The notes beneath the pieces were generated by a model that was not told the origin of the DNA, searched no databases, and saw only the letters and a list, made by a program, of their open reading frames with translations. From assembly GCF_040183065.1 (NCBI RefSeq), contig NC_091132.1, positions 162,152,602 to 162,216,601 on the forward strand: 64,000 nucleotides of DNA. Reading direction: 5' to 3'. This document shows positions 742 to 60,542 of the stretch, piece by piece. A program made the translations under genes and the position numbers. Source of the DNA: Periplaneta americana (lineage: Eukaryota > Arthropoda > Insecta > Blattodea > Blattidae). The stretch's first letter is position 1. The number at the start of each line of letters is the position of its first letter.

Positions 742-2085
742 CACAATCTACTATATACAGTCGCGAAGCTTGAGGTGTTTTTTTTTTTTTTTTTTGCAAA
801 TCTCGTGATAAAGCGCTCCAAGCGGTTAGCAACTAGAAACAATAGACTGTCCATGGTCGACTTTGGACTGTGTCGTATTTCTATCGAGTGCTAGCTCGTT
901 GCGTATTTCACATTGATGCTTGTGAAATGTTCGTTATTGGTTGTAATGAAAATCTTAATGGCTAAAATATAAAAATTGGAATAATAATATGGGACAAGAA
1001 GGAGACGTTTGTAGTGATATAAATTGTAGCAACAGTAAGAGAAAGAGACCAGAGTTATCCTTTTTCCGATATCCGAAAGATTCAGAAAGGTTCCTGGGTT
1101 TCCACAAGAATGCTGTGCAGAAACAAAACTGTTAATTTGAAGTTCTTTGTGACTGTTAGAATACATTATATCCTTAAATTTCACAATGAAATGTTTCAGT
1201 CTAACCGAAAGGACATTAGATACCGGTTAAAGTTCTGTCACTTAGGCTGCTAAATTTCCAGAGAAATAAAGGTTAGGTCTACTTTTTTTTTTCAGAGGAT
1301 ATATTTTTAATTGTAGCTATTAATTTTGTTATTATTTTTATGTGTTATTTTACTAAAGACGTAGAAAAATTAAGTTTGATTTAATGAAATTTATTGATCA
1401 CGTTTTATTTTCAATTCTGGTGGGATTATTATTGCTTAGGCCTACTTTTTTCTTCAAAGGATATGTTTTTAATTATAGCTGTTAATTTTGTTGTTATTTT
1501 TATTTGTTGCTTTACTAGAGACGTAGAAAAAGTCTGTTACAATAAAATTTATTGATCACGTTTTATTTCCAATTCTGGTGTGATTATTATTGCTTAACCT
1601 CATCCCACTTTGTTAACTACGTAAGCCTACACTACAAGTACCGGTACACGTAAGTTACTCCATTAATACATATTTCCATTATTATTGTTGTAAAGAGAAA
1701 TGCAAATTAATATTTATTGGTTTCATAGTTAATTATCGCTATAATCTTGAATGAGTGAAGCTATTATAGTGAATTTCAGTTCGTTTTGCACAAACAAAAA
1801 GTATATTAGCTTATTTCTTGCAGGTATCTTCGAGTTTATGATGGAATTTAATATACTTCATTAAAATAATACATTAACTTTATGCATTTAAAATTTCAAT
1901 AATGGAAGGTAGGTGTTAATTTTTCCAAAAGAACACGACAACGAAAGTGTAACATATTTTGTCGGCTGCTAGGAGAGAGAGATCTGCGATGATGAGGCGA
2001 TAGTAGCGATCCTAGTGGTGGGCAACTACCCATGTTTGCATTTTTACTACATATTGAGCTTCGCGACTGTATATAGTAGACTGTG
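742..2085 (+). mobile_element. long copy of the 7-bp-TSD element (P-superfamily candidate)
   Basis: Both termini carry the inverted repeat CACARTCTACTATATACAGTC, and the flanks are a perfect 7-base duplication ATGGAAC (735-741 and 2086-2092). It sits inside the hAT remnant: sequence on either side is continuous in the related hAT copy near 19330-19510. Its outer ~110 bases on each side match the 176-183 bp MITEs at 21082, 23790, 25744 and 59848; the middle (about 857-1983) is unique and holds a THAP-like reading frame. It is most simply the less-deleted relative of those MITEs. Confidence 0.65.
989..1245 (+). pseudogene. THAP-like zinc-finger fragment in a DNA transposon
   Basis: From an ATG at 989 the frame reads MGQEGDVCSDINCSNSK, then an RPELSFFRYPKDSERF-type stretch. 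This spacing (Cys pair, basic residues, aromatic-aromatic-x-[YF]P) is that of the N-terminal half of a THAP domain. It stops near 1133. A shifted frame around 1173-1240 reads KFHNEMF then NRKDIRYRLK, resembling the second half (His, MF, basic tail). THAP domains are the DNA-binding module of P-element transposases. The match is partial and by eye. Confidence 0.45.
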
Positions 2086-2385
2086 ATGGAACCTTGTGTG
2101 CATAATTATGTCTTTAATATTATTTCTCTTTGAATTCCGCTTAGAGTTTGAAAGTATTAGTTGGACGAAAGTAAGGTTAAAAACGACATAGTTTTCGTGC
2201 TGTGAACAGAGTTCATCTCTCCCATCGCTATAAAATATTGTACACACAGTTCTATTAACCTTTTCCCTAGAATTAAAGCACTGGTTGTTATTATATTATT
2301 AATAACAAAGACAAAATATGTGTGTCGCGATATCGTGGGCGTCCAGTAAAGTGTGTCGTCAGTCAAACAAGACTGGGAATCACTG

Positions 2386-2720
2386 CCTGAAGTATTACAA
2401 ATAGCTGAATTCAGTTATAATTTGCAGTTCATGCCTTTGTGTGTAGCAGAGAAAATCTGCGTGTTTAAATTAAAAATTACTAATGGCTCTTCTGTCATAA
2501 CACACATTTAACAGAAAATTTCCGTAATCTATTTCATTTCACATGTTTTGGTTATGTGTACTTTATGTAAGAACCTGCCTACAAAAACACACACAAACAC
2601 AGACACACATATGTCAAGGAAGTGTAAACATAGTACACAGTTAATTCTTAATAAAAAACTATATAAATTTTCCCTTGTACCTCACATTGTACAGTTGATT
2701 GTTTCTATTTCGATTACACC
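2386..2720. other. 5' flank of zinc-finger gene 1
   Basis: No coding sequence seen. About 2386-2720 aligns with 49716-49950 upstream of gene 3 (shared CA-rich stretch, shared AGGAAGTGTAAACATAG-type block). It probably contains the real upstream region or a non-coding first exon, but I cannot place a promoter or transcription start. Confidence 0.5.
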
Positions 2721-3415
2721 AGCGAATAGAGATTATAAAGAATGGACACTCCGCGTCGGTACCTTTGATGTAGACGGACTGATTTCAATACCTTCAAGCC
2801 AGCTAAAGCGTGAGATTCTGCTTTCTCCCTAGAGTTGGCGCTGACATCACACCAGCTAGCAGTCGACACAGCGGAAATACAACACATATAATTAATACAT
2901 CTAGGTACATTATGTACTCAAATAAAATAAATTGGATCCATAAAATAATAAATCCTTTATTTACTTTATAATGGGAGTTGAGACGTTGACCCCAACAACA
3001 ATTAAAATATGTAATGATTTCATAGCACTGAAAAAAAAAAAAAAAAAAAAACTCTTACGAGAAGTAAAACAATATACCTATATTATATTATATACAAATA
3101 TTAAACGAATTCGATACTTAATTTTATAATGTATTATATCTGAAATATAAAATATGATTATTACAACTAGTTTGTCACTGAGAAATAAGGAAAAGCTGTT
3201 AACTTGAATTTATTTGAAGCAAAGCGTTACTGGATTATGCAATAAAGTAGGCGATGTTTGGATCCTGTGTCTCAATTCTCTTCTCAATGATTATCTTAGC
3301 GTATGCTCGATTACATTACCTCTAGCGCTTGAAAGTGGAACTAACCGCTGGCGCACAGAGAAACAAAACACAGGAAAATTCGCCCAGTGTCCATTCTTTA
3401 TAATCTCTATTCGCT
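2721..3415. mobile_element. Mutator-like MITE with 30-bp TIRs and 9-bp TSD
   Basis: The ends form a perfect 30-base inverted repeat (inward: AGCGAATAGAGATTATAAAG and ten more bases) flanked by the 9-base duplication GATTACACC at 2712-2720 and 3416-3424. Genes 2 and 3 lack the insertion at the corresponding place just upstream of their first coding exon. The interior has no convincing frame, so it is non-autonomous. A 9-base TSD suits Mutator-like elements; the superfamily is inferred from that alone. It lies 15 bases from the exon acceptor at 3430. Confidence 0.85.
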
Positions 3416-3430
3416 GATTACACCTTTCAG

Positions 3431-3534
3431 TTGCGATGGATGTGATCAAGACGGAACCCACAGTCGACCCGTTGGCTATACAGACAAATGACAACACAGA
3501 TGTGGAACAGGAAAAGAAGAAGCCTGTATCACAG
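3431..3534 (+). CDS. zinc-finger gene 1, first coding exon
   Basis: Encodes the N terminus of a C2H2 protein. The exon opens after a CAG acceptor (3428-3430), has five untranslated bases, and starts at the ATG at 3436; the same acceptor-TTGCG-ATG layout is kept in genes 2 and 3, so a non-coding exon lies upstream. Its 33 codons read MDVIKTEPTVDPLAIQ and on to PVSQ, ending at a GTAAAG donor in phase 0. The IKTEP motif is a SUMO-consensus (psi-K-x-E) followed by Pro, as in synergy-control motifs of zinc-finger repressors. The next exon is 3.4 kb away across a Penelope-like insertion. Function beyond nuclear regulation is unknown. Confidence 0.8.
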
Positions 3535-3623
3535 GTAAAGTGAAAATCATTGCTATATCATGTATGCGACGCAAGAGTATTCTCGCGTCATATGACGGAA
3601 GTATTCCCAAATAATATTCATCT

Positions 3624-4979
3624 CGGAATATGTATGGTAAGGCTTTCCTGTGTTAATTTCAGCGTACCTCGTTTACATGTTTCGACCTATTTATGGGTCA
3701 TCTTCAGAACTGATCGTTGTTGGTCTTGGCGTCACTTGTTCTGTTTCCTGTGAGGGTGTGTTCCTGTGTTATAGTGTAGAGTTAAAGAGTGTGTGCGTTT
3801 TGAAGTTGAGTTGCGTGTTGAGAATTTCGTTGGGGTGTGTTTTTGTGTGTCTGTATATTTCATATTGTTCTAGTGTGTTTAGTTTCTGGCTTTTTGGTTG
3901 GATGTGTAGTATTTCCATGTCTGTGTTGATGTCTCTGTGGGTGTGGTTAGCATTTGTGATGTGTTCTGCATATGTGGAGGTGTTTTGTAATTTTGTTATG
4001 GTTGTGATGTGTTCTTTGTAACGTGTTTTAATGATCTGCCTGTCTGTTCTATGTAGAAGTTGTTGCAGCTGTTACATTTGAGTTTGTATACGCATGCGTG
4101 GTTGTATTTGTTTGTTTGTGTTGTTTGTGTGTGTTGCATTCCGAACAATGGTACACAGACTACTCAACATACCAATGAACCAACAAGATTAAATTAAGAG
4201 CTAAACACAATCAAATATATAGCACAAGAAAACGGATACAACCCTAACATAATAGACAACATAATACGTAAGATAAAACATGATCACAAAAAACATAAGA
4301 ATACAACACAAACACAAGAACACAAAAAATACATCACACTAACATACGAAAACAAAAAAACACACAAAATTGCAACCTCATTCATGAAATTAAATTACAA
4401 CATCGCATACAGAACAAATAACACTCTACAAAAACATCTCAACACACAAACAAACAAATACAACCACACAGGTGTATACGAACTCAAATGTAACACCTGC
4501 AACAACTTGTACATAGGACAAACAGACAAATCATTTCAAACACGTTACAAAGGACACATCACAGCCGTAACAAAATTACAAAACACCTCCACATATGTAG
4601 GACACATCACAAATGCTAACCACACCCACAGAGACATCAACACAGACATGGAAATACTACACATCCAACCAAAAAGCCAGAAACTAAACACACTAGAACA
4701 ATATGAAATATACAGACACACAAAAACACACCCCAACGAAATTCTCAACACGCAACTCAACTTCAAAACGCACACACTCTTTGACTCTACACTATAACAC
4801 AGGAACACACCCTCACAGGAAACAGAACAAGTGACGCCAAGACCAACAACGATCAGTTCTGAAGATGACCCATAAATAGGTCGAAACATGTAAACAAGGT
4901 ACGATGAAATTTAACATAGGAAAGTCTTACCGTACATATTCCGAAGTGATGCATTGTTAAAAGTTGTGTAATCAAGATG
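3624..4979 (+). mobile_element. Penelope-like element arranged as an inverted dimer
   Basis: The right arm (about 4440-4979) encodes the GIY-YIG end of a Penelope-like element and its 3' region on the + strand. The left arm (about 3624-4136) is a near-complete reverse complement of the same region. The unit between is single-copy. The whole block is flanked by AATATTCATCT at 3613-3623 and 4980-4990, a plausible 11-base target duplication, so it appears to have inserted as one unit. Each arm carries a CTGAAGA-stem-GAAAC motif (3679-3707 reversed; 4859-4887). Confidence 0.75.
4141..4797 (+). pseudogene. Penelope-like GIY-YIG endonuclease fragment
   Basis: From about 4384 the open frame runs to the stop at 4797 and contains CNTCNNLYIGQTDKSFQTRY, the GIY-YIG signature with the preceding Cys pair found in Penelope-like elements. 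Upstream, 4146-4400 preserves in pieces the segment that follows the RT in these elements (MVHRLLNIPM). The reverse transcriptase itself is missing, so this is a 5'-truncated, inactive copy. Confidence 0.8.
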
Positions 4980-5659
4980 AATATTCATCTGACCAAAGAA
5001 AGTAAAGCATGGTGTTTTTCGTCTTATTTGCCATCATATCCAATGTTATTGATATATTTTGCTTTTCTGACACTTTACTTGTACCTTCCAAAATTGTTTT
5101 TATGCCAGAGCAATGGAGTATGAGAGACTAAGATGGAGAACGTTGTGCGTGGGTAAAAGAACACTCTTTGTACTCTATCCCTTTTCCAGAATCATAAAAA
5201 TTTAAGCAAATATATACATATATATATATAGGCTATTTTTAAGTACTTTTGTTCTTCATGGCTACACATAACTATATACCGATAGCTTCGAACCGATTGA
5301 GATGTGCAGAAGCTGGTATCCGTTGCAAACTGTTCTCATAATAGTGGGTCATCCAATTATATTCTGACCAGAACTTCGACTGGTATTGCGCCAGCCAATA
5401 ACCTTTTCCTTCCCACTGGCCACGCAATACATGACTCCGTGTTTCAGCAGTTACTTGTCATGCTAGAGTGACTGCCAAATAAATTCCAATGCATTTTGTA
5501 AGTTATGTACTCACCCATGTGACGCAAGGAGATGCTGGAACTGCCTGCCTTCATTTTTCATACATTATGGCACCTGCTTAGGAGGTTTCTTAGTGGAATT
5601 TTCTAGGCATGCAATGTCATCAAAAGTTTCTTCTCTATCTCGTAGATTTCGCTTCTTAA

Positions 5660-5866
5660 CCCAGATAAGACTGACGTCCTATATATAGGACACCGGACGT
5701 TTCACACAAATATGTTAATAACAATGACTATGACAGACTAAATATAAGAAAAAAAAATTGGAGGCAATTTATAACACATAAGGATTATGGTATCATGATT
5801 GCCGACTATGAAAATCTTACACAGCAATGTTAAAAAAATAAAACGTTCCGTCCTATCTTATCTGGG
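5660..5866. mobile_element. piggyBac-type MITE
   Basis: A 207-base element between two TTAA sites (5656-5659 and 5867-5870). Inward both ends read CCCAGATAAGA, the TTAA plus CCC organisation of piggyBac-superfamily ends. There is no coding capacity. Bases 4991-5655 before it hold nothing I can name. Confidence 0.8.
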
Positions 5867-6184
5867 TTAAATTGAACACTTTCCGTATCCCTAAATTTAT
5901 TTATTAATTAATTAATCGTATCACAACTTGAAACTCGATCACCAGGGACATTTTCGTGACATAATATCCTGACGACATGAGAGATTTTGTGCTGATATAC
6001 CAATATAAACACCCGATGTACAGTAAAATATTTAGGCCTATTATTTGGTATTTGTTCCTAATTTCAAAGGCATGTTGGTTCCAATAAGTATCCCTACGGC
6101 ATATCCAGTGAGGGCAGTAATCGAAGAATCGACATAATTGCATTTAAACCTCCCTCTCTTGAAGGTTACATCATAGACCCTACT

Positions 6185-6457
6185 GTGAGATTCGAATCGC
6201 ACGAAGACCAGCCAGAAGAAGTACACGAGGAAAAAAGGAATATATATGAACCTTCCATGAGTTTTTATAAGGACAAATACCATCTGGAATCCATCGTCAT
6301 TATGGGACTAATGATAGGAGCCCGTGGGACCATACCCCTGTTCCTAGTCGACTTCTGCAAATCTTTCGGCCTGCATAAAAATATTTTAAGAGATCTAACA
6401 ATTGCAGCAGTCAAAGGCGCAATAGATGTTTTCAGGCATCATACATATGGACCATGA
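6185..6457 (+). pseudogene. retroelement C-terminal fragment (probable LINE)
   Basis: A 90-codon open frame with YHLESIVIMGLMIGARGTIP, then FCKSFGLHK and a run ending at RHHTYGP. This pattern (GARG, then FCKxFGL) resembles the domain after the polymerase of some insect non-LTR retrotransposons. Nothing upstream completes it, and no paralogous unit has it at this position. The ATG is probably not a true start. The LINE assignment is recognition only. Confidence 0.4.
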
Positions 6458-6906
6458 CTAATTCGCATCTCCTTGACGTTACTTCGTTTAATATCATGTG
6501 TTTCAATATAATTAAAATTGTTATTTTTCACTCTAACAACAATGTATCACTAAGCCTCAAGGCATTTACTCTATTGTATCATGGTACTCTTTGTCGATGG
6601 CAACCTGTAGTGGTTACAGGAAGAAATTAAAATAATAATACAATTTAAAAATATATGGGTCAAAGTTACTTAGCAAGACAATCATTCACGTCATAAAATT
6701 ATGACACATGGCCAATTATTAGTCATTTCCTTTGTGCGTTAAGGTTTGAGTTCTATTCTGCTAGAAATTTTCATCTCTAATTTGTCGCCTAAGTTGAGGG
6801 AGTAAGCCAATGACTGCCATGCAGAATCAAGTTAATAGCTATTACACATAACGTGCACTTTAATATAGCTAAACAAATGTATTCACTATGTGTTTATGTT
6901 CTGTAG

Positions 6907-7047
6907 GAAGGATATTTATCGCATCTGGAAGTGAGTGACATGAAGACAGAATGCGCGGACCTCAATTATGATATAAAAACAGAGATAGAATTTGAAGACA
7001 CCACTACAGTGACTATTAGCTTTCCTATGGTGAAATCGGAAGTTGAT
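6907..7047 (+). CDS. zinc-finger gene 1, second coding exon
   Basis: Forty-seven codons between a TAG acceptor (6904-6906) and a GTAAGT donor, phase 0 on both sides. It is an acidic linker, EGYLSHLEVSDMKTECADLN through FPMVKSEVD, with three psi-K-x-E motifs (MKTE, IKTE, VKSE). Genes 2 and 3 have exons of exactly the same length at 36451 and 51655 with only substitutions, so selection has kept the frame. The motifs suggest sumoylation-dependent repression, which is inference. Upstream, 6458-6906 holds only intron. Confidence 0.8.
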
Positions 7048-7487
7048 GTAAGTATTCACTCTAAGTGTACATATATGCTAGCACTGCATTTTACATATGT
7101 TAGAACAGTTATGAGTAATATTGTCGAATAGTGTCAATTTTTTTCAAATTAATTTTAAAATAACTGTGTAAAAATAAGTTATTATTAATTGAAAACTGTG
7201 TGGTACGGGTGTGACCAAATTAGGACACATACATACGCGTGCATACATCTTTCCACAAACAAAAAAAAATTGTGAATCAGCTGATGGTTCGTGAACAATT
7301 TGTGTAATACAGTATGTTGAATATTTTAATTCATTATACTTGAGAAAAGTTCCAAAAAGTTACTGAATTTAAATACTTATGAAGTATAGTTGATGAACCA
7401 GGCTTATTTGGGACACAAATTGAACATAGACTCGTTTTGGCAAATAAGTGTTACTACTCCCTTCATAAATTCCTTAGTTCCAAACTA

Positions 7488-8791
7488 CGAGGGGGATCCA
7501 GGAAATAACGACCGCTTTGTTGTAATAATTAAAAAAATATGTATTTGTTTGAAAAAACAAAGTCTGTTACATAACTGAAGCTTCCTTTACTTCTCTACAT
7601 AATCACCACCTACATTTAAACATTTGTCGTATCTGTTCACTAGCTTTAGAATTCCCGTGTTATACTCCTCTGCCGCCAGTTCATTAAGCCAGGTGTTCAC
7701 TGTCTTCTTCAACTCTTCATCACTTCCAAAACGCGTACCACCCAGAAAGTCTTTCAGCTTAGTGAAAAGGTGAAAATCGCTAGGAGCAAGGTCTGGACAA
7801 TAGGGCGGATGATCAAAGATTTCCCAACCGAATTGATCCAGCAATTCTCGAGTTGAAGCAGCAGTGTGCGGGCGGGCGTTGTCGTGAAGAAGCACAACTC
7901 CTCGCCTCTTGTTTTGGATGGCTTGCCGTAGTTTTCGTAAAGTCTCACAATAACGATTTGCATTGATCGTAGTGCCTTTTGGCGTGAAATCCAGCAAAAG
8001 AACACCTTTGCGATCCCAAAAGACAGTAGCCATGACTTTTTGTGTTGAGAGAGTCTGTTTGAATTTTCTCGGTTTCTTGGGTGATGAGGGATGATGCCAC
8101 TGACGTGATTGGCGCTTGGTCTCTGGGGTGTTGTGAGACACCCAGGTCTCATCACCAGTCACAATTTGATATGTGTGTGATATCGCATCAAGAATGTCAA
8201 TGCTGAGGCCATTCTCTGAATTTTTGTGTTGGTCACTCAGTTGCCGTGGAACCCATCATGCACAGATTTTGTGGTAGCCAAGATGTTGCGACACAATTTC
8301 ACCAAGCAAAGAACGAGAAATGTCAGGAAATGCAATATGCAATTCGTCGAGTGATGTGCGCCTGTCTTGCAAGATTCTGTTGTTCACTTTAGTCTTCAGG
8401 TCTTCTGTGATGAGTGATGGGCGTCCGGGTCGAGTTTCATCGTGGACATTTGTTCGCCCATTGTTGAACATTTCGCACCATTTTCTCACATTTCTTTCAT
8501 TCATTACAGTATCACCATACACTTCTTTCAATTGCCGGTAAATTTCTGCAGGTTTCAAATGTCCGGCATTCAAAAATCGAATCACACTCCTCACCTCACA
8601 GTCGGCGGGATTATCAATCACGTCGTTCATTTTGAAGTAACACAAAATGCACAATGGCGACTTGTTGCAACCAGTACTCACAGCATTATAAGAACACATG
8701 TTAAGGAAGCCAGTTGACCTTCAAACAAGGAAGGGGAGTCAGCTGCGCGGCGGGTATGCGCGAACGGTCGTTATTTCCTGGATCCCCCTCG
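7488..8791 (-). mobile_element. full-length mariner transposon
   Basis: A 1304-base element between duplicated TA dinucleotides (7486-7487 and 8792-8793). Its inverted repeats begin CGAGGGGGATCCAGGAAATA at both ends. It is inserted in the LINE above, so it is the younger of the two. It holds one transposase frame on the minus strand. Confidence 0.95.
7587..8630 (-). pseudogene. mariner transposase, one nonsense codon
   Basis: Starts at the ATG at 8628-8630 (MNDVIDNPADCEVRSVI) and is collinear with a mariner transposase for 347 codons, the usual length. There is an N-terminal helix-turn-helix region with an RPGRPS linker, then the catalytic residues in TGDETW, LHDNARPH and PDLAPSD; the last two are 34 residues apart (D,D34D). 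The only defect seen is a TGA at 8256-8258, in a position that is normally Arg (KICA-stop-WVPRQL), consistent with a CGA to TGA transition. Everything else is open, which suggests recent arrival. Confidence 0.92.
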
Positions 8792-9266
8792 TACTTTCTA
8801 GATTATCAAAATTAAGATGCTATAAAACTATAAGCCTACCAACTCTCCTCTATTGCTGTGAAACTTGGATATTAAAAAAAATCCATTTTTACTTTTGAGA
8901 ACAAAATCTTGAGGAAGATTTTTGGTCCCATTCAAGAGAGAATTTTGAACAACAGGGAACTAAGCGATATTTATAAAGATCCAGACATAATTGCCTTAAT
9001 ACTACGTTGGCTTGGACAGATTCTACAGCGTGATGAAGTCTCTCTTCTACGAAAAGCTTTCGACTATTCTCCAAGATGTAAGAGACCTCTTGGTAGACCT
9101 CGTCTCCGTTGACAGGACCAAGTATATGAAAATCTTTCTACAGGGGAGAACGACAAGAAGATGCAGAGAACAGAGACGAATGGCGATATATCGTGAATGA
9201 GGCTAAAAACCTCTTATGATTTGAAATACCCTAAATTGGTTGATTGATTCATTGATTGATACTTGA

Positions 9267-19197: not shown

Positions 19198-19229
<32 letters not shown>

Positions 19230-19832
19230 TAATAACAGCCATTGCTTTTATTCTGGAGAAAAAAGATGGTGAAATACTATATAGAATATTTTGTAGCGAT
19301 CAGAGAGATGATTACTGTTCACTGCACTGGAATTTTGTTTTTTGAAACTCCTTTTCGTCCAACTAAGACTTTCAAAATCTAAGCGGAATTCAAAGAAAAA
19401 TTACATTAATAACATAGTTATTCACGCATATTTCGGTTTCAGGATGATAAATGCTAGAAAAAGGTGCCAGAAGGCCGTTCAAACGCGTTCCGCCAGAAGG
19501 AAAACGCTACTAATAACTTCTTTGTAATGTCAGACATCCAGTTTTGTAGATAGGTCGATGTTAACAAGTAGTCGAATATTACACAAAAAAAAGCAGCAAC
19601 TGGAACGGCATTTGTCATTAGAAAAATAATATAATTATGTGTCAAGAATCCCAAGCTACTTATACTGAATGTTCGATAAATGATTTTTAATATTTTTATT
19701 GAAAACTCACTAATTTAAATTAATGTGAAGTCTGCGCTTGGTGCATTGCATAGAGTTTTCCCTATATGTGGCTTTATGGTTGACAGAGCTACAAGTAAAT
19801 CATCCTCAAGGTACAACACTCTGTTCCTTTGT

Positions 19833-21081: not shown

Positions 21082-21264
21082 CACAGTCTAGTATATGCAG
21101 TCCCGAAGCTCAATACGTTGTAAATATGCAAACATTAGATAGTTGCTCACCACTAGGATCGCTAATATCGCCTCATTACAGGCAATGCAAAATAGAACCG
21201 TCACAGTCTATTGTTTCTAGCACCCTCAAATCTCAAGCTTCGTGACTGTATATAGTAGACTGTG
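21082..21264. mobile_element. 183-bp MITE of the 7-bp-TSD family
   Basis: Inverted termini CACAGTCTA...TAGACTGTG. Flanked by GTTTTAC and GTATTAC, the latter equal to the empty site in gene 3 (CTAGTATTACG near 61610). Same family as 742-2085. Confidence 0.85.
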
Positions 21265-23789: not shown

Positions 23790-23972
23790 CACAGTCTACT
23801 TTATACAGTTGCAACGCTCAATACGTAGTAAGTATTCAAACATTAGATAGTTGCTCACCACTAGGATCGCTAATATCGCCTCATTACAGGCCATGCAAAA
23901 TAATACCGTCACAGTTTATTGTTTCTAGTACCCTCAAAACTCAAGCTTCGTGACTGTATATAGTAGAATGTC
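23790..23972. mobile_element. 183-bp MITE of the 7-bp-TSD family
   Basis: Aligned over its full length with 21082-21264. The right terminus is mutated (GAATGT), and the flanking heptamers ATAATAC / ATTGTAC match at five of seven positions, so this copy is older. It lies 84 bases upstream of the finger exon. Confidence 0.75.
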
Positions 23973-24055
23973 ATTGTACTACATTATGCTTAATATAGTC
24001 GAACTCCACTGCATTGATTATTGTGCACTCTAATTTATTTCTCTTTTCATATCAG

Positions 24056-25267
<1,212 letters not shown>

Positions 25268-25743: not shown

Positions 25744-25926
25744 CACAGTCTACTGTATATAGTCTTGAAGCTTGAGTTTTGAGGGTGCTAGACACAATAG
25801 ACTGTGACCGTACTATTTTGCATTGCTTGTAATGAGGCGATATTAGCTATCCTAGTGGTGAGCAACTGTCTGATGTTTGCATATTTACTACGTACTGAGC
25901 TTCGCGACTGTATATTCTAGACTGTT
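25744..25926. mobile_element. 183-bp MITE of the 7-bp-TSD family
   Basis: Perfect 7-base duplication GTTTTAT (25737-25743, 25927-25933). Gene 2's 3' flank has the empty site (GAGTTTTATTTTATG near 43150). Inserted in the opposite orientation to 21082. Confidence 0.88.
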
Positions 25927-41150: not shown

Positions 41151-41639
41151 TGTATAATTGATTTTTTTTTAAATGTGTATTAGTTTGGGGAAAACCAAAC
41201 AAATGAAACACTATTTAACTTCCGTGTTTAAATTAAATTGCAATTTGTTAATTGTGTATTAGTACAATATAGGAAAAAAAGGCTCTAAATATTACAAATA
41301 AAGTAAGTCAAAATATGCGACAATTGAAAAAAAATCCCCAAGACTATTGTAGAAGAAAAAAAAAGTATTATTTCCTAGATTTCTATAAATTTGGATGGAT
41401 CCCTTTATAGACAACAGAGCCACTTTCCGGAGATTTGTTGAAAAATATTCGTTTATAAATTTTTCCAAGTGTTTTCATAATATGCCACTAGCTCCTGCCA
41501 ACATTCCGTAGTTATGAATAATTGTTTAGAGGTCCTTTTTTTCAAGATGATACGAAACTGTACTACATTATGCTTAAAATACTTTGACTTGACTGCATTG
41601 AATATTGTGGACTCTAATATATTTCCATTTTTATAGCAG

Positions 41640-42768
41640 GATTGTGAATAATTCTGAGAAGCGTGTGTCAGAAGACTGCACCAGCGTTGATCGTGAAGAA
41701 GATCAATTGACACAGTGTGGCAGCCACAATGGTGACAGTTCAAATATTAGCTGCATAAACCATAGTCCTATCAAATGTAATTTATGCAACGAGGTTTTTG
41801 TAACACATCAATCACTGATAGTTCATTTTGATATACATACAGACAAAAAGTCTTTCCAATATAATGGCTGTGGGAAGTATATTTTTGAAACAAGTGATGT
41901 AAGGAAGAGTGCAATCCTGCACACAGGCGAGAAAGCATATTATTGCAATGTTTGTGGGAAGATATTTAGAAAATCTTGGGATTTCAAGATTCATACACGT
42001 TTGCATACAGGGGAGAGACCATTCAAATGCGAGACGTGTGGAAAGTGTTTCCTATTATTGGGAGATTTAAAAAGACACGTACGAATACACGGAGGCGAAA
42101 AGCCTTTCAGATGCGAAGTATGTGAGAAGTGTTTCACGGAGAAGGGAAATTTGAAGAAACATGCACGGACACACACAGGCGATAGGCCATGCAAATGCGA
42201 TGTATGCGGAAAGTGTTTCAAAGATAAGCAAGTTCTAAAGAAACATGGACGCATGCATACAAGGGAAAGGCCATTCTTATGCGAGGTGTGTGGAAATACT
42301 TTTCCTAACTCTTCAGTGTTTAATAAACATTTACGCACACACACCGGAGACAGTCGAGTCAAATGCGATGTGTGCGGAATGTTTTTCGTAGCACTGGGGG
42401 ATTTAAAGAGACATTCACGCATACACACCGGCGAAAGGCCATTCAAATGCGAGGTGTGTGGCAAGAGTTTTGTGGATAAGCCACATTTAAACATCCATGC
42501 TCGCATTCATACGGGCGAAAGGCCATTTAAGTGCGAAGTGTGTGGGAAGTGTTTTTCCGAAAAGATAGCTTTAACTAGGCACACTCACACACATACTGGC
42601 GAGAAACCATACAAATGCAAAGTGTGTTGGAAGGGTTTATCATGTTCCTCTCAATTGCGCATACATTCACGATTACACACGGGCGAAAGGCCATTCAAAT
42701 GCGATGTGTGTGGGGAATGTTTTGTGGGAAAGAAACTGTTAAGCAATCATGTACGGATGCACACATAG
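41640..42768 (+). CDS. zinc-finger gene 2, C2H2 finger exon (12 fingers, 11 intact)
   Basis: Opens after CAG (41637-41639). An acidic spacer (RIVNNSEKRVSED) is followed by twelve finger units. The first is intact (CNLC, HFDIH). The second has lost a Cys and a His (QYNGC, KSAILH). The next ten are intact, ending CDVCGECF...NHVRMHT and TAG at 42766-42768. Its finger helices are largely different from those of gene 1 (for example LLLGDLKRH, SEKIALTRH, SCSSQLRIH). It lacks gene 1's duplicated finger pair. Expected role: nuclear DNA-binding regulator with a diverged target. The stop replaces the Gly of a TGERP linker and finger sequence continues behind it. Confidence 0.9.
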
Positions 42769-42960: not shown

Positions 42961-43819
42961 AATTTTTTTAAATTTTATTTGTGGAATATGTTTCACTTTT
43001 AAGGGAAGCTAGAAAGCCATATTCACTTACACTTTATTGTACATTTACAGTGAGGATTTTTGCGTTGCGGCCGATACTTGCATAAAATCAAGGTATAATC
43101 TGAAGTGGTGTAATTCAGATGTTTAATTGTTTGCGCCTTTTTGTGCAGATGAGTTTTATTTTATGTTGACTGCATTCAAAAGTTCATAATAACAATAGTG
43201 CTGTACTGTGCCAACATTGCATTGCCATATTCTGCAAACTTACAAAGTTACTAATTTAAACATTTACATGTCGTATACAAAATACAGCATATAAAGATAA
43301 TACATTATCATTACAAAAATTTTAAACCACTCAATAATATAATAATAACGAAAAGTAACAAATTGTGTCTTGTGGGATTTATCACAACTTTTTATTGCAT
43401 AGCCTACACATTTATTAAGCTACATATTTATGATGACTGGGACATACCATTATTTATGAATTTACCAAAAGGTTTTGCTAGACCACAAACTACATATTTT
43501 GATGTCCGGGTACAAAACTTATATGTAACGAATAATTATAAATGGTATGATTGGACGAATTTTGAAATGGTGAATAAATTAAATATTGATATAATATAAT
43601 CAGATAAGTGGGAAATATAATTTGGTTTAGCTACCTCACTTTTTTATAAAATAAGAGTAAATCTAAATAAGAGAGCGTACATGACTGCAAATAATGGTGG
43701 AATCAAAACCACCACCTTCACTACTACTACTAAGTATTCTGCAGGAATGAAATATCTTTTTTACCACTCTCCTCATGAAATAGATAAATATTAAACAAAA
43801 TAAACAACCAAATTAAAAA

Positions 43820-47583: not shown

Positions 47584-48670
47584 TTATTTAAAGATTAGTT
47601 CCATGCGCCTTGTCTTGTAGTTTGCAAACTTTTGAATCATCATCTTATTAAAATTCGATATGTCGTTTAACATGATCTTTACAATGGAAAACATAGCTAA
47701 TGCGGTCAGTCTCTCTTCTCTCATCGTATTTCTAAGATAGGATTTTACTCTCTTCACACACGAAAAGCAACGTTCTGGTTGGGAAGTTGTCATTGGTATG
47801 GTGATAGCTATGTGTAGTAGTTTCACAACTTCTGAAAATGAGGCCTGCAAGTTCTCAGATAGAAGAAACTGCAAGAGCTTGACTGCATCACTGATATTTC
47901 TGAATTCTTGTTTCTGATACAACACAGTGAGTTCCGTTTTCGGTTTGTCTTTATCGAGCACTGGGAAAAGCTTCACACATACATTTAGGTCCTTTTCAGG
48001 AAATGAGCTTTTGTAGTATTCAATTTTTTTTTTTTTGACACAGAAGAGAAGATAATATCAGATGATCTACGAACTGGAATCGGGTGTTAGCTTGTGTGAT
48101 AATGAGGTCACACACTTCCTTGGCTGCCGCAACCCTTGTCTGAATCCCTTCGACCTTACGACGCTTTTTAGTGTTTTCATTTTCACAGATCTCGCTGCTC
48201 AACTGTGCCCTGTTCCGTATTGTCTGTATGGCATTAACAAAACTTGATATGCAGAGTCGGCCTCGGTAGCATAGTCGGTTGCGTGTTCGATCCCGGCCCA
48301 AGTCGATGGCATTTAAGTGTGTTTAAATGAGACAGGCTCATGTCAGTAGATATACTGGCATTTAAAAGAATCCTGCGGGACAAAATTCCGCCACACCGGC
48401 GACGCTGATATAACCTCTGCAGTTGCGAGTGTCTTAAAATAAACCATAATTTAATTTTTTTATAAGCAGATTTGAACCTTAGAAATATCTAACTGGCGAT
48501 GTTGTAGTTGGTTGTATAATATATCTACATGATACATTAATAAATGAAAAAAAAAAAAACAGCCAGAAATTGAATTCAGGATCTTCAAGAGCACGCACCT
48601 GGGCGCTTGCCTCATTTATTGTGATGTTAGATGTTTCAGATTCCATTATGGTTTGAAAACATTCTAGCAA
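47584..48670 (-). pseudogene. hAT transposase remnants
   Basis: Three minus-strand pieces in order. 48479-48670 reads LECFQTIMESETSNITINEA. 48020-48247 reads RNRAQLSSEICENEN and RVAAAKEVCDLIITQANTRF. 47584-47976 is the C-terminal dimerisation region with QPERCFSCVKRVKSYLRNTM and ERLTALAMFSI, close to the SERCFSALKRIKTYLR signature of ZMYM/TTF-type hAT proteins. The central catalytic part is largely missing, so this is a non-autonomous derivative. Confidence 0.8.
48255..48446 (+). mobile_element. tRNA-headed SINE (third type)
   Basis: CGGCCTCGGTAGCATAGTCGG then GTTCGATCCCGGCCC (box B), a GACAGGCTCATGTCAGTAGA body and an AAATAAACCATAA end. It splits the transposase sequence of the surrounding hAT. 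Ends approximate. Confidence 0.7.
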
Positions 48671-51795: not shown

Positions 51796-51812
51796 GTAAG
51801 TATTCACTATCC

Positions 51813-51813
<1 letters not shown>

Positions 51814-51863: not shown

Positions 51864-51865
<2 letters not shown>

Positions 51866-52258: not shown

Positions 52259-53243
52259 GTGAGTGTACTGAACTGGTTATGCTTCTTCCAGTCTTTCATA
52301 CATTCATTTGATGACGAAGGACATAAATTTTATAATGCATAAGTTAATACTATTTTGTATCTACTATATTTATGTGGTTATATATATTTAGTCCTGAATA
52401 TATTTTGATTCTTACATGGCATAAGATTCACTAAAGTTATCATTACCAAGACAATAACAAACTACAGATTCTACTTTATCCGCTGTCCTTTGGCAACCAT
52501 GATTTCATAAGCTCCAATGCCTATGTGTCGTGCTAGTTGACTGCATTTGTGCTGTTTAATTCGTGTGCAGTGAAAGTTGCGACAAGTTTTTTAGGGCGTG
52601 GCACATATATTTTTGCGCAAGCATTGGTTGGCTGCAACTCTTCATCTCCCTGTTCATACTTCGCTGCATTTTAGCATTGTGTCCCCTATCATATTACCAT
52701 GATATGAATGCAAACATCTTCGTCTTACATAACTATTTGTTATTGATACCGTTCCATGATCTTTGAAGCGTAAACTTGATGCGCTGTAGAGGAAAATGCG
52801 TCTACTCCATAAGATTTCCAGGTGCTGCTGCCCACATAACCTGTGCGAGAAGTCTAGGCTATGCTTTCAGCTTTGGTGGAATGGCTTCTAAAAATAGAAC
52901 CATGATTTTAACTATAAAGAAAACTAGGGGTCTGTCAAAAACTGAAGAAAACTCGAGAACAGTGCGAAATTCCTATCGCCTTGAGGATTATTATGGAGAT
53001 ACAAACAGATCTGTGTGAAGTGTTTCATTTTGTTAACAAGATGTATTCTTACAGCCCTTTATTCGATTGAATCGGAAGAGTATGAAATGCTTTTTATTTG
53101 TTATTATGTCATTCACCTTTACTTTGTCCACTTCAGAAGACCTCTTTTGGTTTAGGTAGGTTTATTAGTTATCTTTCTGTCCCTAGTATTAGTTCAAATT
53201 TACATTATCATTATAAGACCAAGTTTAATAATTACCAATAGCG

Positions 53244-53244
<1 letters not shown>
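52259..53244. other. intron 4 of gene 3, first part
   Basis: 52259-52800 aligns with 13120-13213 plus 14184-14575 of gene 1. From about 52810 gene 3 carries ~7.4 kb that gene 1 lacks (paralogy resumes near 60240). An 80-codon frame at 52776-53018 is not recognisable. (TA)n occupies 53245-53286. Confidence 0.55.
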
Positions 53245-53287
<43 letters not shown>

Positions 53288-53377
53288 CTAATTTGCATAT
53301 TTGTTTTTGAAACCTTGCTAGGGAAAGTCTAAAAGTTAATTTTGTCGACATCACACACAGATATATACATATACACA

Positions 53378-54060
53378 GGTTGTAACTTTAATAATGGCAA
53401 CTATTTATTCATTACGAATATACAAATGATACATCTGTGAAACTTTTACAGTCGTTTAATGTAGTAACGAGAATTGTCTACAACTCGTTGCCAACGATGT
53501 GGAAGTCGCAGTATCCCTGTAGCAGCTCCAGTTCTGTTGATGTTTCTGATGGAGTGCCCTACTACCTGCAGAATATCGGGAACAGTCCAGAATCGAACGT
53601 CACGAAGTGGTTCCTTCATCTATGGAATTTAAGTCATAATCACAGAGGCTTAAGTCAGGTGAATGTAGTGGATCAAAAAGCACTTCTCACTCCCAGCGAC
53701 GGTACAAATCAGCTGCAGAGCGTTCCATGTGCACCCTTGCGTTTTCCTGCAAAATGATAGGAGGATTCTGCAAAACATGTGGGCGCTTTCCTCGCAATGC
53801 TGGTCTCAGATTATGGTCCAGAAATGACGGAATTACTGTGCATTTACATTCTGTCTTTGAAGGAGATTCGTCCGAGCCATGTTTTCCACGCGGTGACGCC
53901 CCTCGTTGAAGGCTCGAACCCACCTCGCCAGAGTCCTGTATGGAAACGCCATCACTCCACATGCCTCAACAAGACCATCATGACATTGTCGTGCTGAATG
54001 ACCATGGGCAGATTGAATTTTCAGCCAAGATCGCTGTTCCTGCTTTCTGAACATGGCGAA
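53378..54060 (-). mobile_element. internally deleted mariner-like element
   Basis: On the minus strand, MFRKQEQRSWLKIQSAHGHS, CHDGLVEACG and YRTLARWVRAFNEG (N-terminal helix-turn-helix) at 53880-54054. This jumps to RGKRPHVLQNPPIILQENAR, DLYRRW and SPDLSLCDYDL (C-terminal catalytic end) at 53640-53810. The second catalytic Asp (HDNA in relatives) is Glu here (QENA). About half of the protein is missing. Confidence 0.7.
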
Positions 54061-54144
54061 ACAACCGCTTAGAGCTGCAACTAACAGGAAACTAAGTTAA
54101 ACTCTCCACAGCGCATGCTCTGTGAGTCGGACGGAAGACTCCGT

Positions 54145-55293
54145 TTAGGGGGGAGGACAGCAGATATAGACTAACATGTGGTAGAACTGACAACAATTAA
54201 CTCCGCCTCGTTTCGCTTTTACCGCAGTGTTACCCACGTATATACATGCTTCTAGACATGCATGCACTCGTCGAATCATGGACTGTCGCACCCTTTCAAA
54301 TACTCCGGGATGATGTCGAATGGTTTCGCAGGCTTCCATGACACGTCGATGAATAGTTTCTTGATCCGGGATGTCTGCTCCATAAACCAATTGTTTAAGG
54401 TGCCCCCAAAGATAAAAATTCAAAGGATTGAGGTCGGGAGAACGTGCTGGCCATTGAACTGGTCCTTCTCTGCCTATCCATCTGTCATGGTAGACACCAG
54501 TCAGTGTATCTCGAACAAGGCGACTAAAATGTGCTGGAGCCCCATCATGCATGAGCCACATGTTTTGTCTTATGTTCAGTAATTCTGGAAGAGTGTTTTG
54601 GATAAAGTCCCTGTAGATAGCACCTGTAAGACGTGCTGGTAGAACGTATGGACCTACCAGACAGACACCTACAATTCCAGCCCACACATTAATCCTAAAT
54701 TGTTGATGATGTCTAGCCTGAAGTACAGCACGAGGATTACGATCTGCCCATACGTGTTCATTGTGGAAATTGGTAATTCCATCTCTCCCAAACGTTGCCT
54801 CGTCTGTAAACAAAACTGATGAGACAAACAATGGATTGGCTATTTGTGCTAGAAACCATCGGCAAAAGTTCTCCCGTGGTGGACAATCTGCAGGCGAAAG
54901 GCCCTGCACACGTTGCATATGATACGGATACAAGAGCTGCTCGTGAAGTACCCTCCATGCTGTACTGTGTGATGTACCAGTTGCCACAGCCAATTGTCTT
55001 GTACTGATATCTGGATTGTCTTCGACACAGTGTAAAATGTCTTCTTCGAGGTTCGGCATACGCACAACTCTTGGTCTTCCTCGATCACCAGTCTGTGGTG
55101 CAACGGTTCCTGTCTCAGCAACGCGACGATACACAGCAACAAATGTTTGATGATTCGGTTGTCTTCGGTCTGGAAATGCCATCTGATACAGCCGTACAGC
55201 CTCGCGTCCATTACCATTCGCGCGACCATATATAAAAATGATGTCAGCCTGCCCACGAAATGAATATCGTCCTGCCATGGTTGAACGAAACAC
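54145..55293 (-). pseudogene. full-length DD41D-type transposase, catalytic D to N
   Basis: A 382-codon uninterrupted frame (MFRSTMAGRYSFRGQADIIF). The N terminus is the helix-turn-helix module common in insect IS630/Tc1/mariner-like proteins (FIYGRANGNGREAVRLYQ). Catalytic motifs are LFTDEATF, LMHDGAPAHFS and SPDLNPLNFYLWG. The second and third positions are 41 residues apart, as in the DD41D (VISITOR/rosa-type) group, but the third is Asn instead of Asp (codon at 54418-54420). It is therefore probably inactive despite being open. The true start is probably MAGRYSF. The right end may be near 55513 (inward CAGGGTATATCAAAAATACG); the left end is not found. Confidence 0.82.
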
Positions 55294-55609
55294 GTTAATT
55301 CACTCCACGTTCACAATTGCAACGTTGAAGACAGACTAATGACAAATGACACATGTAAACAAGTCTCCATGGCAACACTTCGCCATCTGCAGTCCATTTC
55401 TGATAAAACGAGTCACAGCCTTCTATGAATGAGTGCATAAAGAAATGAAGTTCTTTTGGTGTAAGGAACCCATGCCTGAAGTTTGTACACGTATTTTTGA
55501 TATACCCTGTATATATATACATACAATCAGCCCAGAGGACATCGACGGTTAGAGGCCCTTTGGAAGACTGGAGCTGAAGCAGGTCTACACTCGCCTAATT
55601 CGTGACGGT

Positions 55610-55610
<1 letters not shown>

Positions 55611-55649
<39 letters not shown>
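55611..55649. repeat. (GAT)n microsatellite
   Basis: Thirteen uninterrupted GAT units. Confidence 0.95.
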
Positions 55650-55650
<1 letters not shown>

Positions 55651-56269
55651 AAGACATATACATACACGTTCTTTGTTGTATATTTAGTAACTGACAATAA
55701 TTCATGACATCACACATTAAAATGTAAATGAACAATATCAGATATTGTTTTCATATTTATGTGTACCACATAAAAATATCAACCAGCAGGATTTTAGAAC
55801 AATATTTAAAAAATGCACTGTTGTCCACAAGTAGTTTGTTCCGAAACGTCGCAAAACTAACAACATGTGTTCGTACCTGTGGAATGCGAACTCCGTCTCG
55901 TATTTTGTTACATATCAGCCTCAGTTTCTCTGTCCTTTTTCGTTATGAAGAATGTTTTTGTTTTCTAACCATCTGACTTGACCTTTCCATTAGTTGCTTT
56001 CCAAATCACATGTCGCCCATCCCTAACACATTACTGGCCCTTCACAGTGGTCTCTCTTTTTGTTACAGTAACAGACGCTCTGTATAGCCTGTACAGTACA
56101 TCATTTGCTTTTTATTAATTCATTACTTTATTTTCATTAATATTTCGATTTACATTTATTTTAATTGTTTGAAATTTACCCCTTTGTTCATTCCTCACTT
56201 ATTTTTATAATTTTGTTATGCTTTCTATATACTTTATTTACACTTGCTTATCTAGAATGATAGATGTTT
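55650..56269. other. intronic, nothing identified
   Basis: AT-rich, short frames only; no recognisable element. Confidence 0.5.
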
Positions 56270-57415
56270 AATATTTTAGCCCTAACCCAGAATCCTCCAA
56301 TATATCTCACTCTAGAGGAGCAGGCACTAACACATCATGAAAAAATGCTACGGTTAACAACAACAATATGGGAAAATAGACTGTTACAACCAACCAAGTT
56401 GAAAACACAAACAAGTTTCCTGTCCAAAGTCACGGAAATAAAAACAGAATTGAATCTCCCTAAATCTAAAGAAAACATTTTAAGCAGAGAAAACCCTCTA
56501 ACCTTCGAACCAATTAACACTCAACTAGATTTAAAAGAACCAGTTACAAAATCTGAAACTTTCAAACCTGTACTAAAAGCGCTGGCATTAGAAGCTGTGA
56601 ACAATAGATACCCACCAGAAGAATGGTAACATATCTACACAGATTGGTCTACTATCGATAACAACTCAGGATCAGGAACTACGTGTGCGTTATTCTCATT
56701 TTATCAACCAGCAGGACATCATACAACAAATTTTGATGCGGAAATAATGGCTATTCATATCTCACTCCAACACCTACTATACAGAATAGATAAATTTCAA
56801 AATGCTGTCATTCTCTCTGATTCTAAAGCAGCATTATATGCAATAAATTCATATAAAATGATGTCAATCCAAATTAAAGAATGTCACAAAATGATCCAAC
56901 TTAAACTACAGAAAACAATTCAATTGCAATGGATACCTGCACATTGCGGAATTGCTGGAAATGAAACTGCTGACTTTCTTGCCAAAAAAGGATCCAATTT
57001 AATTCAGAATACAAATACAAGCCTACCTTTTACATCCATCAAAAGACTAATTAAAAATAAATATAAAATCAAGCAAAACCAAGCACTATGTACCAAAGCC
57101 AAAGATAAAAAATGGAGCATTTTAATAAAAAAAAAAAAACAGAAATTATTCCAGAAATCCCACGTAAATCTGCAGTAGCAAAATTCAGACTGCTTACAGA
57201 ACACGATTATTTGGCCAAACACTTGAATAAAATAGGAATTTACACAAATCCAAATTGCCCTCTATGCAACAAAGAAGAAGAAATGACTGAAGATCATCTC
57301 ATAACCTGTGAAGTTCTACCTGATGGATCCACCACAGAGAAATATTGGAGAGAAAGAATGCTAATGGCTTCGTTGCCAAAGCCCGGCATTAGATAACAAC
57401 AACAACAACAACATA
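56270..57415 (+). mobile_element. LINE 3' part with RNase H domain and (CAA)n tail
   Basis: 5'-truncated non-LTR retrotransposon. A linker (LTLEEQALTHHEKMLRLTTT) precedes an RNase H domain with its acidic residues: IYTDWS (56637), FDAEIMAI (56732), ILSDSKAAL (56810), WIPAHCGIAGNETADFLAKK (56930). The Gly of the usual TDGS is Trp. A zinc-knuckle-like CPLCNKEEEMTEDHLITC follows at about 57257. Stops or shifts at 56629 and 57178 break it. It ends at AACAACAACAACAAC. RNase H plus this tail suits the I/R1/Jockey side of LINEs. Confidence 0.8.
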
Positions 57416-57744
57416 TTTTAATCAAATACTGTAAGGATGCATTCGCTTGTATCCTCATTACATTAGTGACATGAATTTTATTATTTGAAGTCCTTTTTTT
57501 CTGCCCTCACTAACAGTCTTTGATAATTGTTTAACTCCTTTTGGCATTGGTGGGACCATCGCCACATATTTCACGAGTACAAATATTCCTCTTGGTGTAT
57601 AAACGTATTTCTTTTGGATTATTCACTTTACTTGTCATGATGTCCTAATATTCTTTAACATTATGCAGATTGTGTCACGTGAATGTTACAAAACTGTGAC
57701 GTGGATGTAGGGCACGTGCAGGAATTCATTCATAGTGCATTAGA

Positions 57745-59300
57745 TTTTTGCCCAAGGGAAGGTCTTTGAGTCTATATTAAGCAGTCCTTAATATTTACCT
57801 TTTTCTATCTTCCTCTTAGTTTCCGCATACAATTTATATCATGTTAATGTCGTCTATTATGTAATACCTTATTCTGCCCCAAACTTTTCTTCTGTTTACT
57901 AGAGTTGGGTCGATTCGTGAACGAATCGTTCATTCGAACGACTAATAATAAAGAATCGTAAGAATCGATTCGTTGTATCAACGAATCGTCGTTCAAAAGA
58001 ATCGTAACGAATCGTCGTTCAAACGAATCGTAACGAATCGTCATTCAAAAGAATATGAAGGAATCGGCATGGTATCGTAACCCACGATTCTATTCGTTGT
58101 TTGATGTAACCTGTCAACGGACATTTCCGAACCGTGTCGAATGCTCCCGAGCGAGAGTGAAATCAAAATATGTACTGCATTTGTTAAGTATGGAAAATAA
58201 TGAACACAAACCTGAAATTTGCATAGTTAAATAGAGATGTAGTGCAAAAAATGTACTTCATAATAAGGTTCAGTTGATAAATTATAATTTAGAAACATTA
58301 TCTTGGGTAATTTTGTAGACTAATGGAGTTCATACTGAATGGTTCCAGCCAATGAGAAAGAGACAATCCAATGTCTCGCCTCTTATGCCATCTATGAGAT
58401 AGATGTAGAACGTTTTTGTTCTACGCGTGATTTGCAAAGGAAAGTGTCTTGCGACGATTCAAAAGAATAGTTGGAATCGCAGACTGGGAAGAATCGTGAA
58501 CTCCTTGACGATTCAAAAGAATAGTTGGAATCGCAGACTGAGAAGAATCGTGAACGAATCGTTAGAATCGATTCGTAATGTGTGATTGAATCGTTGGAAT
58601 CGACTTCTGAAAAAGAATCGTGTTGCCCAACTCTGCTGTTTACCAGTGCTTCCTTCAGAAGTCAGTTTTTTCTCAAACTGTCACCCAACCAATTCCTTTC
58701 TCTCATACTGAGCAGTACCAGAATTATATTTTCTCCACCCTTACTTTTTAACACATCTTCATTTCTTATACTGTCTGTCAATTTTCCACGCTGCGTTCTT
58801 GTCTACATCCATATTTCAAATGCATATTGCCGTTTCTCTTCACGTCTACGTAATATCCATGCTCCGGCCCCATATAGTGACACACTCCACACACAGCACA
58901 CCACTAATCTCTTCCTTAGTCTTTTTTTTTTCCAGAGATCCGCAGAAGAAGCATTTTTTTCTCGGTTATATGCCTCCTTTGCCTTTTCTATACCCCTTCT
59001 TCGACTTCCATGGAGCTGGTCATGTTACTTCTTATAGTACGCCCCAAGTGTTTTAAGCTGTCCATTTGTTTTACTGCCTCATTTTGAATTAGCATGTTTA
59101 CCTTCATTATTTTTCTTGGACTAGTAGTTATTGTTCGTTTTGTTTGCGTTTATCTTCATCCTGTACTGTTCACAGTTGTCATTTAGCTTCACTAGTACTT
59201 CCCTTCGTTTCGTTTCCTCTTCTACTAACACCATATCATCAGAAAATCATTTGCACTTCATTCTTCTTCCTAAAGTGTACAAATTCTTTTTTTCAAATCT
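57745..59300 (-). mobile_element. LINE C-terminal part split by a hAT element
   Basis: On the minus strand from 59300: FSDDMVLVEEETKRREVLVK (RT motif C as FSDD), NDNCEQYRMKINANKT, MHGSRRRGIEKAKEAYNR-like, LRKRLVVCCVWSVSLYG, REEKRQYAFEIWM and RNWLGDSL. After the insertion at 57900-58635 it resumes at GRIRYYIIDDIN. Stops and shifts abound. RTE-like by motif pattern. Confidence 0.7.
57900..58635. mobile_element. hAT-type MITE dense in GAATCG motifs
   Basis: 736 bases flanked by a perfect 8-base duplication CTGTTTAC (57892-57899, 58636-58643). The ends are TAGAGTTGGG and, inward, CAGAGTTGGG. Subterminal zones (57910-58100 and 58450-58625) each contain about a dozen GAATCG/CGATTC hexamers. No transposase frame. 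Inserted into the LINE above. Confidence 0.88.
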
Positions 59301-59847
59301 TCGATGGACACCCTGAGAATATTTCAAATAGTTGAAGTTCTTTAGGCTGTTACTAAATTTTAAATTTATTGCTGTGTACGAAGTACGTAATAATATGGAA
59401 ATATTTCTTCTTTGAACTCTTATAATTGTTTTTGATATTGACACTCGTTCATTTCGACATCATTTGAGCAGTGCCATCGATTAACCTTCAGTCGTGATCA
59501 ACTGTACTTTTGAGAGATAAACTTTAATGTTTCATGTTATTGTGGGCAAATATCCATGAATAATACACCTTTGTGTTCCCAGGCAGCTGTGATAATATGC
59601 TCTGTGGTGCCGATAATCTCTGCTTTCTGTTCGATCTTTGATAAACTTGTCATGGAATTACTATAGGGACTTAAGTTGCATCTACATTGTTTCACCTTTC
59701 TTTCTAATTATGGTCACATTCAATAGTGAATGCCTTTTTCAACTAAAAGTGGGAGTGCATGTATCAATTGAAAGCTACACCTCAACAGTGAGTATGTTGT
59801 GCGTTATTTCGTTCAACAGTACCATGTTACAAGCTGTGATATATAAC

Positions 59848-60023
59848 GACAGTCTAGTATATGCAGTCACGAAGCTCGAGTTGTTGAGGGTACTAAGAAG
59901 AATTGACTATTTCGCTACATTTTCGCATTGTCTGTGACGAGGCAATAGTAACGATCCTAGTGGTTAGTAACTATCTATGGATGCATACGTATTGAGCTTC
60001 GTGACTGTGTATACTAGACTGTG
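59848..60023. mobile_element. 176-bp MITE of the 7-bp-TSD family
   Basis: Perfect 7-base duplication ATATAAC (59841-59847, 60024-60030). Ends GACAGTCTAG...TAGACTGTG. Aligns with 25744-25926. Confidence 0.87.
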
Positions 60024-60542
60024 ATATAACTATAACGTATTTGAGAGGAACTGATTGTTATAGGTTGCCATGAATAAACTTAAAATTGTTTTCTTTGGTG
60101 ATGATGGACTTTTTCTTCTGAAAATGTCGACAAGTACGATTAGTTTTATTGACAAATATCACAGATGTGAGCGCCTATGGAGATTTTAATCACAGTTTTT
60201 AGAATCAATCAGGCCTAAGTTTTGAAATTGATATTTAATATGTACTAATTAATATATCTACTTAGTGAAAATGGAGTTCATCACGGTACACAATGTAGAC
60301 ATAAAATCTGCGTGTATCTTAATTCAATGTGCGTTTTCAGTTCGATTCTTTCAATATCCTCGCCAGATTATATGCGTACTCACATGGAAAATGGAGTGTA
60401 GATATAGCATTAATCTAGCGTAATGTAACCGACTGTATATGAAATTCATGCAGTTCACTCATGATGAGTACCTTTCCATTTATTAAGCCAGAGATGTAGG
60501 AAATGCATAACAGATTCAAATTATTTTCCACATTGCAGAGAA

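Follow-up and report, generated by a model that had tools for sequence, protein, structure and literature searches.

A MITE-like family of non-autonomous transposons in the cockroach Periplaneta americana, very probably of the P superfamily

The window analysed here, a stretch of 64,000 nt from the genome of the cockroach Periplaneta americana, contains five copies of a transposon family with terminal inverted repeats (TIRs). With high probability these are non-autonomous P-superfamily elements, similar in kind to miniature inverted-repeat transposable elements (MITEs) and with a target of the 1360/Galileo type. The initial annotation had named the family a P-superfamily candidate, which is supported by (i) the length of the target site duplication (TSD), (ii) the target motif, (iii) one half of a THAP domain in the long copies, but the searches described below turned up no full-length member that has these ends. 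The family is a new one of a known type, that of mass-amplified non-autonomous P-superfamily elements with seven-base TSDs. In the literature on P elements and P-type MITEs in cockroaches, no paper describing the family was found, subscription journals and repeat databases lying outside the search. The surrounding genome assembly that was searched amounts to 3.23 Gb in 91 contigs (assembly PAMFEO1, reported as 3.23 Gb in 91 scaffolds, 17 of them chromosome-sized; PMC12774602).

Target site duplications in the window and the genome

All five copies lie exactly where they had been placed from the sequence. The long copy (742–2085, plus strand, 1344 bp) has a left TIR of 29 nt at 742–770 (plus) that is 97% complementary to the right TIR at 2057–2085 (minus), and it stands between two copies of the heptamer ATGGAAC at 735–741 and 2086–2092. 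The short copies are found at 21082–21264 (minus, 183 bp), 23790–23972 (minus, 183 bp, one end altered), 25744–25926 (plus, 183 bp) and 59848–60023 (plus, 176 bp). Inverted ends of 29 nt, of the type CACAGTCTA, are common to all five copies, as had been proposed; the TIRs of the family measure 29–36 nt and are accompanied by one inner TIR-like motif.

When the left and right flanks of the five copies are compared over lengths of five to nine bases, 32/35 bases match at a length of seven, a value not attained once in 20,000 random placements, and identity at five, six, eight and nine bases is that of the background. Because the flanks match only at this length, the duplication is seven bases long, in line with the initial annotation. 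It is perfect, again as claimed, for the copies at 742, 25744 (GTTTTAT) and 59848 (ATATAAC), and the flanks of the copy at 21082 (GTTTTAC and GTATTAC) agree at 6/7 positions. The window's flanks comprise seven different heptamers, and the proposed pattern R-T-N-N-N-A-Y fits them all.

A duplication had been claimed for all five copies, and four of them do have one; the exception is the copy at 23790. Only 5/7 positions agree between its two flanking heptamers, and both heptamers occur in similar form, three bases apart, in two paralogous sequences that lack the insertion (41290–41877 and 62892–63458, both plus); the flanks are therefore neighbouring bases of the original sequence rather than a duplication. 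The insertion at 23790 is real, but its target duplication is absent or lost, perhaps through a short deletion next to the altered end. Empty sites had also been announced for two copies. Paralogues with a single target were found for the copy at 742 (19218–19727, minus; 72% alike, differing by five bases next to the target) and for the one at 25744 (about 43070–43167, plus; the likeness on the right-hand side stops ∼10 bases past the target), which supports a true duplication at both.

Three similar stretches lie at 24018–25085, 41602–42768 and ∼63139–64000; the first is an array of C2H2 zinc fingers by its Pfam matches, and the other two are assigned to the same class by their likeness to it. 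The insertion at 23790 adjoins the first of these zinc-finger-like stretches and is absent beside the other two.

For the wider genome, a sample of 60 loci was assembled from two DNA searches and consists of the best matches to the queries, not of loci drawn at random. Both ends could be located by a length rule in 51 of them, 25 short and 26 long. The loci set aside before the TSD count were those without two ends (L003, L013, L019, L034, L053, L055 and L057) and those whose pairing of ends fell outside the length limits (L010 and L032); the discarded pairing of L010 (1536 bp) has a perfect heptamer and that of L032 does not. No two of the 51 copies have both flanks in common, which means that no insertion was counted twice. 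Perfect seven-base duplications border 37/51 copies (16/25 short and 21/26 long), rising to 46/51 when one mismatch is allowed; at a length of eight a single copy has a perfect duplication (1/51), and at five, six or nine none does (0/51).

R-T-N-N-N-A-Y fits 23/37 of the perfect TSDs against a background of 2.3%. Two of the 51 copies, L017 and L033, are the window's own (L033 being the long copy at 742), and their exclusion from the motif test left 36 of the 37 perfect targets. The consensus of these 36 is the palindrome R-T-A-N-T-A-Y, with A or G at position 1 in 31, T at position 2 in 30, A at position 6 in 35 and C or T at position 7 in 33. The motif GTNNNAC is matched at 98/144 positions (36.0 expected; the maximum of 5000 draws was 54), the Galileo target GTANTAC at 139/216 (59.5 expected) and the 1360 target GTTNAAC at 114/216 (59.6 expected). 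The family thus shows two traits of the P superfamily, TIRs bounded by a duplication of seven or, in the one case, eight bases and a palindromic target with GT...AC edges, together with the Galileo/1360-type combination of a seven-base duplication and GT[A/T]N[A/T]AC. The outcome that the initial annotation named as refuting, TSDs not mostly of seven bases with a GT-NNN-AC-like consensus, was not observed in this sample.

Size forms, copy number and coding content

In the genome the long form is ∼1.33 kb in length and the short forms are 176–183 bp. A search with the left end's outer 33 bases, allowing two mismatches at most, gave 18,037 occurrences, mostly left ends, and the reversed control does not occur at all (0). 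The THAP exon gave 5135 candidate places at a first look, and the best 150 that were scored are 96–100% identical to the query. On contig C1, the exact left TIR lies 235–239 bp upstream in 12/16 THAP places within the listed TIR range, and from this constant spacing the THAP fragment belongs to the long form as a rule.

The initial annotation took the short copies for internal deletions of the long one, which holds only roughly. In favour of this, the majority sequences of the two forms share their first 33 and last 95 bases, and the long copy of the window has an inner motif of 18 nt in common with the three copies of 183 bp; the 176-bp copy is more diverged and has no match to the 18-nt motif. 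The inner TIR-like motif of the long copy (826–850, plus) may be a transposase-binding site. Against it, the short forms have a core of ∼25 bases without counterpart in the long form and are more diverged: the 25 short copies differ by 3.0% from their majority and by a mean of 5.2% pairwise, compared with 1.5% and 2.8% for the 26 long copies. Judged by these sequences, the short forms are best read as a sister MITE subfamily that shares its master with the long form. The long copy also contains an internal tandem duplication (1273–1596, plus) of two units of ∼163 bp (1273–1438 and 1436–1596) that are 86% alike.

A THAP-like frame had been reported in the long copy. It is real, a frame of 48 residues at 989–1135 (plus), but it covers only positions 1–36 of the 87 in the THAP profile, the N-terminal half of the domain. 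Among 30 long loci, 26 keep both the ATG and the open frame; in L044 and L055 the frame is intact and the ATG changed, whereas in L054 and L061 a stop codon interrupts the frame. The 26 intact frames, which leave out L044 and L055, were scanned against Pfam PF05485, and 23/26 match at E ≤0.001 and 26/26 at E ≤1 (best E 9.9e-6); the frames are 85–96% identical to the first one, and the 26 scans are not independent tests. No selection on the half-frame is claimed, since a divergence of 1.5% suffices to explain its retention and similarity to this very stretch was what the loci were chosen by. The family thus has a THAP-type N-terminal segment as P elements do, only a half-domain in the window copy. 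The complete THAP zinc finger of an autonomous P element is missing, the window frame ending after 48 codons, and the copies are for this reason not autonomous P elements. For a derivative that arose by deletion, an incomplete finger says nothing about descent.

Ten frames of the long copy, picked from 34 listed, were scanned for domains, and none contains a catalytic or other convincing domain. Comparison of the long-copy frames with the open frames of 30 P-transposase loci gave nothing convincing among the matches listed; a match at E 0.002 to a poly-lysine stretch was taken as chance. Leaving aside the long copy nested in L085, the THAP region matches the N-terminal frame of one such locus, L084, weakly (E 9e-5, from a three-sequence comparison with many queries), a weak point in favour of a P origin. 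Two THAP places with frames of 96 residues (C11:169110663 and C6:150964016) came into question as masters but, going by frame lengths alone, are probably frameshifts. The exact TIR pattern has no match in viral contigs (0), no relative of the THAP peptide was found in viral and prokaryotic collections, and two bacterial matches to the TIR pattern (L001 and L002) were taken as chance.

A mariner-type transposase occupies two adjoining frames of the window at 7587–8720 (minus; HTH_48 and Transposase_1), and a frame of 384 residues at 54145–55299 (minus) with matches to the DUF4817 helix-turn-helix and to DDE_3 is a Tc1/mariner-like transposase. A fragment of a hAT C-terminal dimerisation region lies at 47584–48057 (minus) and an RNase H frame, probably of a retroelement, at 56630–57178 (plus). 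The frame of 199 residues at 4198–4797 (plus) is by eye like the GIY-YIG domain of Penelope-like elements and has no Pfam match at 0.001.

P transposases of the genome and alternative origins

The P-type RNase H domain (PF21787) has 2964 candidate places in the genome, and the best 150 that were scored all exceed the cut-off. P-type transposases are many and belong to several lineages, some with long open frames; L083 (662 residues) and L091 (739 residues), for example, have helix-turn-helix, RNase H and GTP-binding domains. On different chromosomes there are several places with the same score. Thirty P-transposase loci were fetched from the 2964 places with ∼1.5 kb of flank. A master element was also sought by co-location: by eye, no THAP place (best 150 of 5135) was noticed beside a PF21787 place (best 150 of 2964) or beside a place of the P-type helix-turn-helix domain PF12017 (best 150 of 1252), and the edges of other P lineages, sought from aligned copies, were not informative. 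Among the 150 listed PF12017 places, 16 have an open frame of exactly 155 residues, on several chromosomes (for example C12:170617481, C8:129783920 and C2:196889861); this suggests a further deleted P derivative in which the helix-turn-helix region has been retained.

Several observations count against an origin in the P superfamily. The family TIRs, with up to nine mismatches, are absent from 29/30 of the P-transposase loci and their flanks, and in L085, the sole locus of the 30 that has them, they belong only to a neighbouring long copy; the tie between the family's ends and a P transposase is thus an indirect one. The THAP match is only a half-domain: with 18.9 bits the window copy stays below the Pfam cut-off of 23.9, its E of 0.0026 places it among the 3/26 frames that miss 0.001, and in comparisons with the PDB the THAP matches were weak (E 0.31 and 0.37 at best). 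One of the five window copies, that at 23790, has no duplication, and the genome counts come from best matches. THAP domains, moreover, occur in other transposon classes too. In L085:1–683, as a separate observation, the long copy interrupts sequence common to other loci of the same P-transposase lineage; it thus seems to have inserted in that element or close beside it.

The occurrence of THAP domains outside P elements would also allow that another superfamily, either THAP-bearing or duplicating seven bases, mobilised the family, with PHIS/ISL2EU, Kolobok and Dada as the candidates. This is very unlikely. PHIS and Kolobok duplicate two to three bases or TTAA, and here 37/51 duplications are perfect at seven. 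Dada elements do make duplications of six to seven bases, but they insert, by means of a Dada transposase, into particular multicopy RNA genes, and the insertions described here have the palindromic RTANTAY target. One may also imagine a new THAP-bearing superfamily that has a different catalytic core and chooses its target as P elements do; the long copy would suit this, as no catalytic domain was recognised in its ten frames or by comparison with those of the 30 P-transposase loci. The length and motif of the target are nevertheless close to those of 1360 and Galileo, and P transposases are abundant in the genome, which leaves such a superfamily with only the slightest probability. Lastly, hAT-type MITEs would fit what has been published on this assembly, in which Tc1-mariner and hAT are given as the leading DNA elements (PMC12774602), and the target reported for hobo, GTNCGNAC / NTNNNNAN, is similar in style (PMC3276498). 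Hobo, however, is reported to make eight-base duplications at 99.83% of its sites (PMC3276498), as against 37/51 perfect at seven and 1/51 at eight in the cockroach, where the eight-base duplication of hAT elements is thus not the rule, and the family carries a THAP half-domain. The hAT origin is already disfavoured by TSD length, and we give it hardly any credence.

Under the preferred P-superfamily origin, a P transposase would have moved these copies. A P-type transposase supplied in trans would bind the ends (the ∼29-nt TIR and the inner TIR-like motif), excise the element and insert it with a seven-base stagger at a palindrome of the form R-T-A-N-T-A-Y, which would leave the seven-base duplication. 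The 1.33-kb form may be the remnant of a larger element of which the ends and the first part of the THAP region were kept, and the 176–183-bp forms may be a further reduced sister subfamily; we infer both the role of the inner motif and this history of deletion. It is also conceivable, if unlikely, that the family represents a seven-base, Galileo-like P branch outside flies and one of the largest P-type MITE bursts yet seen, in which the thousands of copies with the THAP half-exon would influence the transposase of their parent much as the KP repressor does, either through titration of its binding or through a truncated THAP peptide.

Relation to known P-superfamily elements

The P superfamily is reported from all arthropods surveyed (PMC6327564), and the presence of P elements alone is therefore not new. 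What the family indicates is that the seven-base, RTANTAY-type behaviour of the fly elements 1360 and Galileo is found in a cockroach too. The genome lends itself to the questions of what makes a P-type transposase use a stagger of seven or of eight bases and of which transposase mobilises which MITE.

Close parallels are found in flies. Galileo is reported to make TSDs of seven and rarely eight bases at a palindromic target, GTANTAC, or GTATTAC in Drosophila willistoni (PMC4168063), as the cockroach family does; it likewise has a THAP domain (PMC3688188), and its short TIR segments are described as far more amplified than its transposase segment (PMC10990002). In contrast with the TIRs of 29–36 nt in the cockroach, those of Galileo are long and internally repetitive (PMC3688188), a feature not seen here; the host of Galileo is Drosophila, and the transposase of the cockroach family was not found in the P-transposase loci above. 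Of two D. melanogaster elements, the P element makes duplications of eight bases and 1360 of seven (PMC3276498). The likeness to 1360, judged by the target, consists in the modal TSD of seven bases and the palindromic GTTNAAC target (PMC3276498), whereas target positions 3 and 5 of the cockroach family fit Galileo better (139/216 vs 114/216).

The P-type MITEs described from Anopheles gambiae are non-autonomous P derivatives that keep both ends around an unrelated core, but they have eight-base TSDs and 5–310 copies per family (PMC1562414), in contrast with seven bases and thousands of ends in the cockroach. Zebrafish Pdre2 resembles the family in a TIR that starts with 5'-CA and in its subterminal repeats (PMC10983969), as well as in its deleted derivatives (PMC7776569), and differs in its eight-base TSD, its TIR of 13 bp and a full-length transposase that is known (PMC10983969, PMC7776569).

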